This document shows, in pieces, positions 12,112-12,965 of a DNA stretch of 64,000 nt (positions within the stretch are counted from its first letter, which is position 1; each line of letters begins with the position of its first letter). The DNA lies in assembly GCF_037120705.1 (NCBI RefSeq), contig NZ_JAWLJU010000002.1, positions 2,552,001-2,616,000 of the forward strand, in the 5' to 3' direction. The stretch comes from Pseudoalteromonas sp. UG3-2 (GTDB taxonomy: Bacteria > Pseudomonadota > Gammaproteobacteria > Enterobacterales > Alteromonadaceae). A program made the position numbers and the translations under genes. Under the pieces are notes generated by a model. It worked only from the letters and a program-made list of their open reading frames with translations, had not been told where the DNA came from and did not search any database.

Positions 12112-12204
12112 CGCGGGATGGAGCAGAATGATAAATCATTCGTCGGGCTCGCTAAACCTGGAAAGAGCCGAAGGTCGTCGGACACCGACGTGTTAGGTTC
12201 ACAC
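12112..12204 (+). repeat. tRNA-fMet-like unit 1
   Basis: The unit shares the first 15 bases of tRNA-fMet, then the D loop is replaced by AATGATAAATCATT (12127-12140), the anticodon region by GCTAAACCTGGAAA inside a GGCTC/GAGCC stem (12146-12169), and the T stem by CGTCGG-ACA-CCGACG (12176-12190). It ends with TAGGTTCA between GTGT and ACAC. It has no CAT anticodon, no 3' acceptor strand and no CCA, so it cannot be a working tRNA. Confidence 0.85.
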
Positions 12205-12216
12205 AAAATATACAGG

Positions 12217-12310
12217 CGCGGGATGGAGCAGAATGATAAATCATTCGTCGGACTCGCTAAACCTGGAAAGAGCCGAAGGTCGTCGGATACCGACGTGATT
12301 GGTTCAACAC
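12217..12310 (+). repeat. tRNA-fMet-like unit 2
   Basis: Same plan as unit 1. GACTC replaces GGCTC in the second stem (one pair lost), the third stem CGTCGG/CCGACG is kept with loop ATA, and the terminal hairpin is weakened (GTGATTGGTTCAACAC). Confidence 0.85.
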
Positions 12311-12322
12311 AAAATATACAGG

Positions 12323-12399
12323 CGCGGGATGGAGCAGCCTGGTAGCTCGTCGGGCTCATAACCCGAAGGTCGTCGGTTCAAATCCGGCTCCCGCAACCA
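12323..12399 (+). tRNA. tRNA-fMet (CAU), copy 1
   Basis: A 77-base initiator tRNA with encoded CCA end. The hallmarks are the unpaired C1-A72 end, GGG/CCC at the base of the anticodon stem, anticodon CAT at 12357-12359 and the T-loop GGTTCAAATCC. It differs from E. coli tRNA-fMet only by a pair in the acceptor stem. A 23-base hairpin (ACTTCT/AGAAGT) follows directly at its 3' end. Confidence 0.97.
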
Positions 12400-12447
12400 C
12401 TTCTTAGTTAAGGTAGAAGTAAATCAAAACTTAGCAAAATATACAGG

Positions 12448-12538
12448 CGCGGGATGGAGCAGAATGATATCATTCGTCGGACTCGCTAAACCTGGAAAGA
12501 GCCGAAGGTCGTCGGATACCGACGTGTTTGGTTCAACA
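12448..12538 (+). repeat. tRNA-fMet-like unit 3
   Basis: Same plan as the other units. The first hairpin has lost its AA loop (AATGATATCATT, a direct palindrome), the second stem has GACTC, the third stem is intact with loop ATA, and the terminal hairpin ends AACAG instead of AACAC. Confidence 0.85.
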
Positions 12539-12551
12539 GAAAATATACAGG

Positions 12552-12628
12552 CGCGGGATGGAGCAGCCTGGTAGCTCGTCGGGCTCATAACCCGAAGGTC
12601 GTCGGTTCAAATCCGGCTCCCGCAACCA
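12552..12628 (+). tRNA. tRNA-fMet (CAU), copy 2
   Basis: Identical over 77 bases to the copy at 12323, including encoded CCA. Followed by a spacer almost identical to that after copy 1. Confidence 0.97.
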
Positions 12629-12676
12629 CTTCTTAGTTAAGGTAGAAGTAAAACAAAACTTAGCAAAATATACAGG

Positions 12677-12770
12677 CGCGGGATAGAGCAGAATGATAAA
12701 TCATTCGTCGGGCTCGCTAAACCTGGAAAGAGCCGAAGGTCGTCGGACACCGACGTGTTTGGTTCAACAC
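12677..12770 (+). repeat. tRNA-fMet-like unit 4
   Basis: Same plan, with GGCTC/GAGCC, CGTCGG-ACA-CCGACG and GTGTT-TGGTTC-AACAC all intact. One change in the shared 5' part (GGATAGAGC instead of GGATGGAGC). Confidence 0.85.
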
Positions 12771-12782
12771 AAAATATACAGG

Positions 12783-12876
12783 CGCGGGATGGAGCAGAAT
12801 GATAAATCATTCGTCGGGCTCGCTAAACCTGTAAAGAGCCGAAGGTCGTCGGGCACCGACGTGTTAGGTTCAACAC
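12783..12876 (+). repeat. tRNA-fMet-like unit 5
   Basis: Same plan with all four stems intact. The changes fall in loops: CCTGTAAA in the second loop instead of CCTGGAAA, and GCA instead of ACA in the third. Confidence 0.85.
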
Positions 12877-12888
12877 AAAATATACAGG

Positions 12889-12965
12889 CGCGGGATGGAG
12901 CAGCCTGGTAGCTCGTCGGGCTCATAACCCGAAGGTCGTCGGTTCAAATCCGGCTCCCGCAACCA
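12889..12965 (+). tRNA. tRNA-fMet (CAU), copy 3
   Basis: Identical over 77 bases to the other two copies, including CCA. It is the last unit; CCACT/AGTGG just after it (12963-12980) could fold into a short hairpin but lacks a T tract, so no convincing terminator is visible. Confidence 0.97.

Follow-up and report, generated by a model that had tools for sequence, protein, structure and literature searches.

What are five rebuilt copies of the initiator tRNA doing among the initiator tRNA genes of Pseudoalteromonas sp. UG3-2? tRNA operons are usually treated as tRNAs and spacers. In the 64,000 nucleotides analysed here, termed the window (positions 2552001-2616000 of contig 2 in a 4.16 Mb genome of 2 contigs and 100% completeness), tRNA-fMet genes and units of 104-106 nt, their boundaries counted from CGCGGG, follow one another on the + strand in the order unit 1, unit 2, tRNA, unit 3, tRNA, unit 4, unit 5, tRNA, the units spanning 12112-12888:

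11176..11979, + strand: upstream inositol-phosphatase-like gene (cysQ-like), syntenic in the genus, the neutral yardstick below
12041..12068, + strand: promoter-like TTGCAA-16-TATGAT upstream of the cluster (consensus scan, 9/12)
12112..12216, + strand: unit 1 (repeat finder, genome search)
12217..12322, + strand: unit 2 (repeat finder, genome search)
12323..12399, + strand: tRNA-fMet copy 1 (ARAGORN, Rfam)
12448..12551, + strand: unit 3, with a 2-nt loop deletion, the palindrome still perfect
12552..12628, + strand: tRNA-fMet copy 2 (ARAGORN, Rfam)
12677..12782, + strand: unit 4 (repeat finder, genome search)
12783..12888, + strand: unit 5 (repeat finder, genome search)
12889..12965, + strand: tRNA-fMet copy 3 (ARAGORN, Rfam)

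ARAGORN, Rfam and the repeat finder agree with the initial annotation of this DNA that three tRNA-fMet genes, identical to each other in sequence, alternate with five units. Over the cluster, ARAGORN and Rfam call the three genes and none of the units. With Rfam 15 at gathering score tRNA is the sole family, and no family falls on the units up to E 10; sub-threshold matches sit on the strand opposite to the tRNAs. In a test against RF00005 (at least 29 bits, an anticodon, an acceptor stem with CCA) the real genes score 61.3 bits and the units fail. Rejected by ARAGORN and by every Rfam model, the units set this cluster apart from a normal tRNA cluster, as had been claimed. A whole-genome search places all 5 unit matches of the genome in the fMet cluster and none elsewhere. 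Two overlapping promoter-like matches, at 12041..12068 and 12024-12052, lie upstream of the cluster, the scanned region holding 5 such sites by consensus scan versus 2.3 in shuffles, and relatives show a similar TTGCAA...TATTAT block upstream; one common precursor for units and tRNAs, as proposed earlier, is thus plausible.

Tandem repeats are error-prone in assembly, and the array might on that ground be taken for an artefact. To this we give virtually no weight: the assembly is in 2 contigs at 100% completeness, the five units differ in sequence, and the explanation is all but refuted by relatives with the same array, the two-contig genus genomes G045, G046, G073 and G076 holding one of the same kind.

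Common to all units are the first 15 nt of tRNA-fMet (one base different in unit 4), CGTCGG(G/A)CTC and CGAAGGTCGTCGG; all carry inserts in the D loop, the anticodon loop and the T arm, and the anticodon and CCA are gone, so that the earlier description of inserts and losses is borne out in each of the five. Unit 1 begins with CGCGGGATGGAGCAG, identical to tRNA-fMet 1-15, followed by AATGATAAATCATT replacing the D loop; its anticodon 5' side is CGTCGGGCTC, the anticodon loop is replaced by the insert GCTAAACCTGGAAAGAG, CCGAAGGTCGTCGG comes next, the T loop is exchanged for ACA plus CCGACG, and the tail ends in TATACAGG, the leader of the following copy. Its pairing elements are as follows:

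12113..12117, + strand: acceptor 5' strand GCGGG, predicted to form P1 with CTCGC 12148-12152
12127..12140, + strand: D-loop insert AATGATAAATCATT, 14 nt, hairpin P2; GAATGATAAATCATTC spans 12126-12141
12148..12152, + strand: CTCGC in the anticodon-loop region, predicted new partner of GCGGG
12165..12200, + strand: hairpin 2, GAGCC 12165-12169 with GGTTC 12196-12200
12176-12181 and 12185-12190, + strand: inner pairing of hairpin 2, CGTCGG with CCGACG, enclosed by GAGCC/GGTTC

Folds of single units predict two hairpins, the first pairing GCGGG with CUCGC and enclosing GAAUGA/UCAUUC, the second pairing GAGCC with GGUUC around CGUCGG/CCGACG. The 3' acceptor strand, annotated as lost, is indeed gone in its original form, but it has been replaced: the CUCGC of the anticodon-loop insert can pair with GCGGG. 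When the whole precursor is folded, other pairings compete and the probabilities are 0.15-0.59 for P1 and 0.31-0.64 for P2. The 5' hairpin is of ordinary stability (z -2.0 to 0.0 versus shuffled sequence, ten examples).

Is the unit a local accident? Searched by blastn with unit 1, 35 of 108 genus genomes matched, with 1 to 5 matches per genome; on the sequence side, the refuting outcome named at the outset (no unit in relatives, or an assembly error) is thus not what is seen. The same search gave no match in 73 of 108, so the unit is dispensable. The upstream gene, which we take to be cysQ, was found in the fetched stretch for 34 of the 35 unit-bearing genomes. Among 69 fetched genus loci (some genomes twice) cysQ was matched in 67, always on the same strand and upstream of the first fMet-like start by under 400 nt; the two loci that lack it are contig ends (L179, L182). 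Loci from other genera, 17 in all, gave no cysQ match. In a FastTree tree of partial cysQ from 50 loci (34 with the unit, 16 without), carriers appear by eye in all major clades, and 10 parsimony changes are needed, where shuffles average 13.8 and go no lower than 10, in a sample biased towards carriers. The unit is thus probably as old as the genus and has presumably been lost repeatedly. The earlier idea that one altered copy was amplified here holds as regards the common origin of the five copies but not as regards a local alteration.

With regard to the earlier suggestion of a recombination substrate that keeps the tRNA copies identical, units mirror the tRNA allele of their own genome (T1 + TCTGG in L198, GTCGTCAG in L195), which suggests that conversion runs from the real tRNA genes into the units. 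Such tracking is what would be expected if the units were neutral tRNA pseudogenes, dead copies from unequal crossing over whose tRNA-like parts are kept by conversion and whose hairpins were made by template switching at palindromes. Patchy presence (35/108, 1 to 5 matches per genome), the ordinary stability of hairpin 1 and the recurrence of perfect T-stem palindromes also fit, as does the frequency of broken fMet pieces of several kinds. A census of 38 fMet clusters (25 from the first 34 listed genus genomes and 13 from elsewhere, mostly picked for hits) found at least one fMet-derived fragment outside the genes in 29 clusters, 19/25 from the genus and 10/13 others, against 0/144 shuffled spacers; the fragment-free clusters are those of G009, G010, G012, G013, G024, G031, G149, G256 and G290.

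Three further observations concern repeats. In G103, a genome outside the unit-matched set, the tRNA-fMet start pattern recurs nine times, always on one strand; this may be an array that has grown or a unit of a different kind. The ordinary spacers and leader of the L196 fMet cluster bear a near-perfect hairpin, GTCGTCGG-AA-CCGACGAC, which resembles the T stem of the tRNA joined to its complement, as though sequence from that stem had been put to use again as a spacer hairpin. In the window, 13135-13290 holds TTATACCAATT as direct repeat and palindrome followed by a stretch like one downstream of the L015 cluster, and looks like an interspersed repeat.

The pseudogene account predicts that the inserts drift neutrally. 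We took four-fold degenerate cysQ sites as the yardstick (27 loci, 351 pairs, window genome excluded) and aligned 46 distinct units, each closed by the start of a following copy; 4 rows, belonging to 2 genomes and cut by a contig end or unread bases, were left out. In the 299 pairs whose four-fold identity is below 0.5 (mean 0.303, saturated), the 14-nt insert is 0.970 identical, a comparison that involves one yardstick gene, a 14-nt stretch and related sequences. Elsewhere in the same units CAGG stands at 0.979, the tRNA-derived first 15 nt at 0.947 and the 9 nt after the insert at 0.898; the unit's remaining 3' part is at 0.555 and the upstream leader at 0.525. Adding the window genome (28 loci, 378 pairs) gives 326 saturated pairs with a four-fold identity of 0.303 and values of 0.980 for CAGG, 0.948 for the first 15 nt, 0.969 for the insert, 0.898 for the next 9 nt, 0.556 for the rest and 0.527 for the leader; the window genome's own 27 pairs have 0.301 at four-fold sites, 0.957 in the insert and 0.561 in the rest. 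For the 52 closer pairs (four-fold mean 0.756) the insert is at 0.982 and the rest at 0.959.

Conversion by real tRNA genes could account for the kept first 15 nt; it cannot preserve the insert, since this is not tRNA sequence. Horizontal exchange would be expected to bring the 3' part with it, a part that has diverged. The insert is thus kept beyond neutral expectation, as a functional RNA would be (0.97 versus 0.30, for one yardstick gene and 14 nt), and of the unit it is the 3' part, not the D-loop insert, that drifts. These identities argue for selection on the D-loop insert, probably as RNA. They tell against the pseudogene account, in which a non-tRNA insert would hardly stay at 97% identity between genomes with randomised neutral sites while the 3' part of the same unit drifts; so do the changes in the hairpin described next, and we consider dead copies a serious rival explanation, though a rather doubtful one.

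Of 47 units, 40 carry the hairpin sequence AGAATGATAAATCATTC unchanged. Among the seven variants, two read GGATGAT...ATCATCC; one, from another genus, reads AACGAT...ATCGTT with the closing pair lost; one has a shortened loop (window unit 3); one changes its closing pair from G-C to G-U; and two (L006, L013) are altered on one side of P2, so that a pair is lost. Three of the seven are thus symmetrical, including the one that loses its closing pair, two more keep the stem and two break one pair. In 22 hand-picked rows (18 distinct) P2 is 100% paired, with an A-U to G-C double change in two rows, a figure that is too favourable since L006 and L013 lie outside these rows. Over the same rows the whole structure beats 500/500 shuffles on covariation score and on cells paired, while 12/500 shuffles reach its number of doubly changed pairs and 122/500 its number of further pair types, statistics that are inflated by kinship among the sequences.

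The base of hairpin 2 differs by clade (GAGCC/GGTTC, GAATC/GATTC, AAAGC/GCTTT, AGTC/GACT, AAGGC/GCCTT), and its closing pairs are absent in L017, in L018 and in the L024 group. Matched halves of this hairpin do modestly better than mismatched ones (-4.34 vs -3.56 kcal/mol; 509/20000 permutations do as well). CAGG/CCUG (P0) and parts of P1 are broken in several units. Since hairpin 1 is not unusually stable and the hairpin 2 test is modest, the constraint looks more like one on sequence plus a short stem than one on stability.

Conservation of primary sequence rather than stability would suit a trans-acting small RNA, a stable unit of ~105 nt that is excised and binds a protein or base-pairs elsewhere as sponge, decoy or regulator. 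In E. coli, pieces of tRNA operons are known to play parts of this sort, and here the leaders match at both ends of the unit, which occurs in up to five copies per operon. Against this, the unit is often absent from genus genomes, and a scan of 6 genomes for the palindrome core pointed to no target or partner, single exact copies lying elsewhere in 2 of them, neither with a tRNA in the 0.7 kb fetched. One would expect a decoy for tRNA-binding proteins, moreover, to retain the anticodon or CCA, both of which are lost; the decoy roles suggested at the outset find no evidence in units whose conserved part includes a non-tRNA hairpin. We judge a trans-acting product unlikely, though a serious rival to the reading favoured below.

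The same palindrome could act as DNA, as an operator, a recombination cassette or the scar of an integrating element. Symmetrical changes suit a dyad operator as well as a stem, and direct repeats of the tRNA start flank the units, so that homologous recombination can add or remove copies. Its distribution does not fit: GAATGATAAATCATTC occurs 4 times in the window, always inside units (shuffles average 0.10 at up to 2 mismatches), and the exact 14-nt core has 4 copies in this genome, all 4 in units and in a single orientation, with no wider regulon of the exact sequence. Counting exact AATGATAAATCATT, GATGATAAATCATC or mixed forms likewise gives 4 in this genome, all in units; the five other genomes scanned have 11 of these forms, 2 of them outside the fMet cluster (G023, G098), with no tRNA within the 0.7 kb fetched. 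The unit matched none of 50,697 phage and 72,556 plasmid records, and no recombinase was recognised by eye among the ORFs at 8-18 kb. A genome-wide operator is rejected for the exact sequence, a phage or plasmid origin is unsupported by the record search, and a DNA-level element in general appears improbable.

Most units have a ribosome-site-like GGAG four bases before an ATG, and GGAG-CAGA-ATG ATA AAT CAT could open a micro-ORF for a peptide or leader beginning MINHSSDS... The frame is not kept among relatives: in the window, unit 5 reads open for 11 codons and then stops, the deletion in unit 3 shifts the frame yet spares the palindrome, ACG stands for ATG in 2 units, a stop falls at codon 6 or 9 in 3/46 (L019, L028, L032), and beyond about codon 13 the frame varies among clades. 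These stops, frameshifts and losses of start lead us to reject the micro-ORF as very improbable.

The reading we favour, at a rough probability of 0.38, is that the units are cis-acting folding and processing elements of the initiator-tRNA precursor. Directly before an unchanged tRNA-fMet lie 40 of the 46 distinct units with a readable end. In outline, a tRNA-fMet copy would have been rebuilt so that each half closes on itself, the 5' half as GCGGG/CUCGC, a stem like that of the acceptor with the D-loop palindrome for a cap, and the 3' half as a second hairpin built from the T stem; the result would serve in cis as a spacer for folding and processing ahead of the real tRNA, a processing spacer being among the roles proposed at the outset. 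The leader TACAGG precedes units and tRNAs alike, and cuts there would free each unit. The 5' hairpin could form upon transcription and mask the duplicated acceptor strand, which if left unmasked could displace the next tRNA's own 5' strand. Computation shows the anatomy, the age, the synteny, the selection on the insert and some symmetrical changes; transcription, cleavage, action in cis and a protective purpose we infer. Copies that have lost the ability to serve as tRNAs, yet whose short hairpin sequence hardly varies among the related genomes with units, suggest an undescribed RNA element derived from a tRNA.

Predicted folds of units with their tRNAs provide a lead; the energy models behind them ignore modification, magnesium and the order of transcription. 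In the window's three unit-tRNA pairs the best fold gives the tRNA 3' acceptor strand to the unit's GCGGGA and loops out the tRNA's first bases, and in two of the three the unit's GAGC also takes the D strand; these swapped folds lie 2.2, 3.5 and 7.9 kcal/mol below those with an enforced cloverleaf. The mean predicted cloverleaf probability is 0.51 with the upstream unit versus 0.86 without it (computed for 14 of 40 cases), and in the same 14 it is 0.49 when the insert is shuffled, 0.44 when the tail is, 0.42 when both are, and 0.44 when the unit is swapped for a plain tRNA 5' half. Native inserts thus beat shuffled ones slightly, and a unit of any kind lowers the cloverleaf probability greatly; in the whole-precursor fold the three cloverleaves have probabilities of 0.47-0.49. 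Protection of the tRNA by an early hairpin, a kinetic idea, is weakly indicated by these models, and the two one-sided P2 variants, with the low P1 and P2 probabilities in the precursor, temper the cis reading.

The same competition might instead be the purpose of the unit. Unit and tRNA 5' strands could compete for the same 3' acceptor and D strands as a two-state switch, which we think distinctly unlikely; the further step, that the conserved palindrome hairpin, perhaps protein-bound, would decide which fold wins, and that the order would in this way gate maturation of the initiator tRNA through a family of RNA elements derived from that same tRNA, we rate just as low.

How far do rebuilt copies extend beyond the genus? 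A covariance model, R1, was built from hairpin 1 and the next bases; real tRNA-fMet genes reach up to 35.6 bits with it. In 395 family genomes genus units score 77-104 bits among the matches listed, and at least 6 genomes outside the genus rise above the tRNA background: G119 (68.1), G212 (61.8), G108 (44.4), G207 (39.3), G190 (37.2) and G237 (36.6 bits). In 394 order genomes (E up to 5e-6) 7 matched, two of which, G645 and G600, belong to another family. At the matched loci outside the genus the rebuilt fMet copies adjoin fMet genes. G119 carries the D-loop hairpin in a symmetrically altered form. In G108, G190, G207, G212 and G237 the anticodon-loop inserts are GCTA-/ACTA-like and the D loops differ; a 3' end with CCA persists in G190, in G237 and in one of the G108 copies.

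The rebuilt copies fall into three recurrent kinds. Kind A has a GCTAAxACC-like sequence in place of the anticodon loop; kind B has a T-loop insert, TTC(A/G)CTCTTCATAA or a variant of it, which is common across the genus and occurs in G207 too; kind C has the anticodon insert A(G/A)CTCTTCATAA. Across the order the kind C pattern occurs at 29 places in 24/295 genomes, with 14 matches for the reversed-pattern control. From 20 of these places 18 regions were fetched; 7 adjoin tRNA-fMet with rebuilt copies, in families f6, f11, f12 and f20, and 11 have no tRNA and look like chance. The T-loop-insert pattern was found order-wide in 2/295 genomes, neither of which had a tRNA in the fetched 1.2 kb. 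Five families of the order (f1 and these four) thus have rebuilt fMet copies next to fMet genes. In several of these families the CTCTTCATAA-like sequence is predicted to pair with an upstream complement, and the 3' half to fold on itself.

Two other arrangements were noted. At tRNA-Leu(gag)-tRNA-fMet loci of two other families (L213, L214, L228, L229), rebuilt copies with a CTC-A(G/A)CTCTTMATAA anticodon insert follow the fMet gene. In L029 and L166 the last tRNA-fMet has on its 3' side a tandem of fMet 3' half with T-loop insert, CCA and terminator-like hairpin, which looks like the tyrT/rtT layout of E. coli.

A literature search, with subscription papers outside its reach, found no report of such units, and one passage of PMC5143459 uses none of the terms pseudogene, tandem and gene cluster. 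The element is not described in Rfam or in the searchable literature; as evidence of novelty this is weak. The array has retained a rebuilt initiator tRNA, probably since the genus arose, and the non-tRNA insert of this copy is conserved between genomes whose neutral sites are scrambled; other rebuilt copies recur in further families of the order. If the units do affect maturation, they would form a control point on a tRNA needed for every protein start; if the switch reading were true, they would be a switch on the supply of the tRNA that initiates translation.

Three known arrangements invite comparison. E. coli metZWV and metY likewise comprise three tandem fMet genes and one apart, and the K-12 spacers and near flanks of these genes contain no fMet-derived fragment at a local score of at least 13. 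The tDNA fragments and tRNA pseudogenes of integrating elements are also partial tRNA copies adjoining an intact gene; such fragments are usually 3' ends and decaying, whereas the units are 5' halves with a constrained insert and no phage match. The closest likeness is to tyrTV/rttR (rtT RNA) of E. coli, where tRNA-derived repeats that are not themselves tRNAs lie in and after a tandem tRNA operon: in the stretch of K-12 tyrTV examined, the last 19 nt of tRNA-Tyr occur twice outside the tRNAs, and rttR and tpr are annotated there. Judged as RtT-type elements, which would carry the adjacent tRNA's 3' end downstream of it, the units fail, having the 5' end without the 3' end and no RtT match. 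Save for one 10-point match, the tyrTV repeats consist of the 19-nt 3' end alone, whereas the units keep, in rebuilt form, the anticodon and T stems along with the 5' half; and unlike the rttR repeats they stand ahead of the genes and in the spaces between them, and their D-loop insert is conserved.
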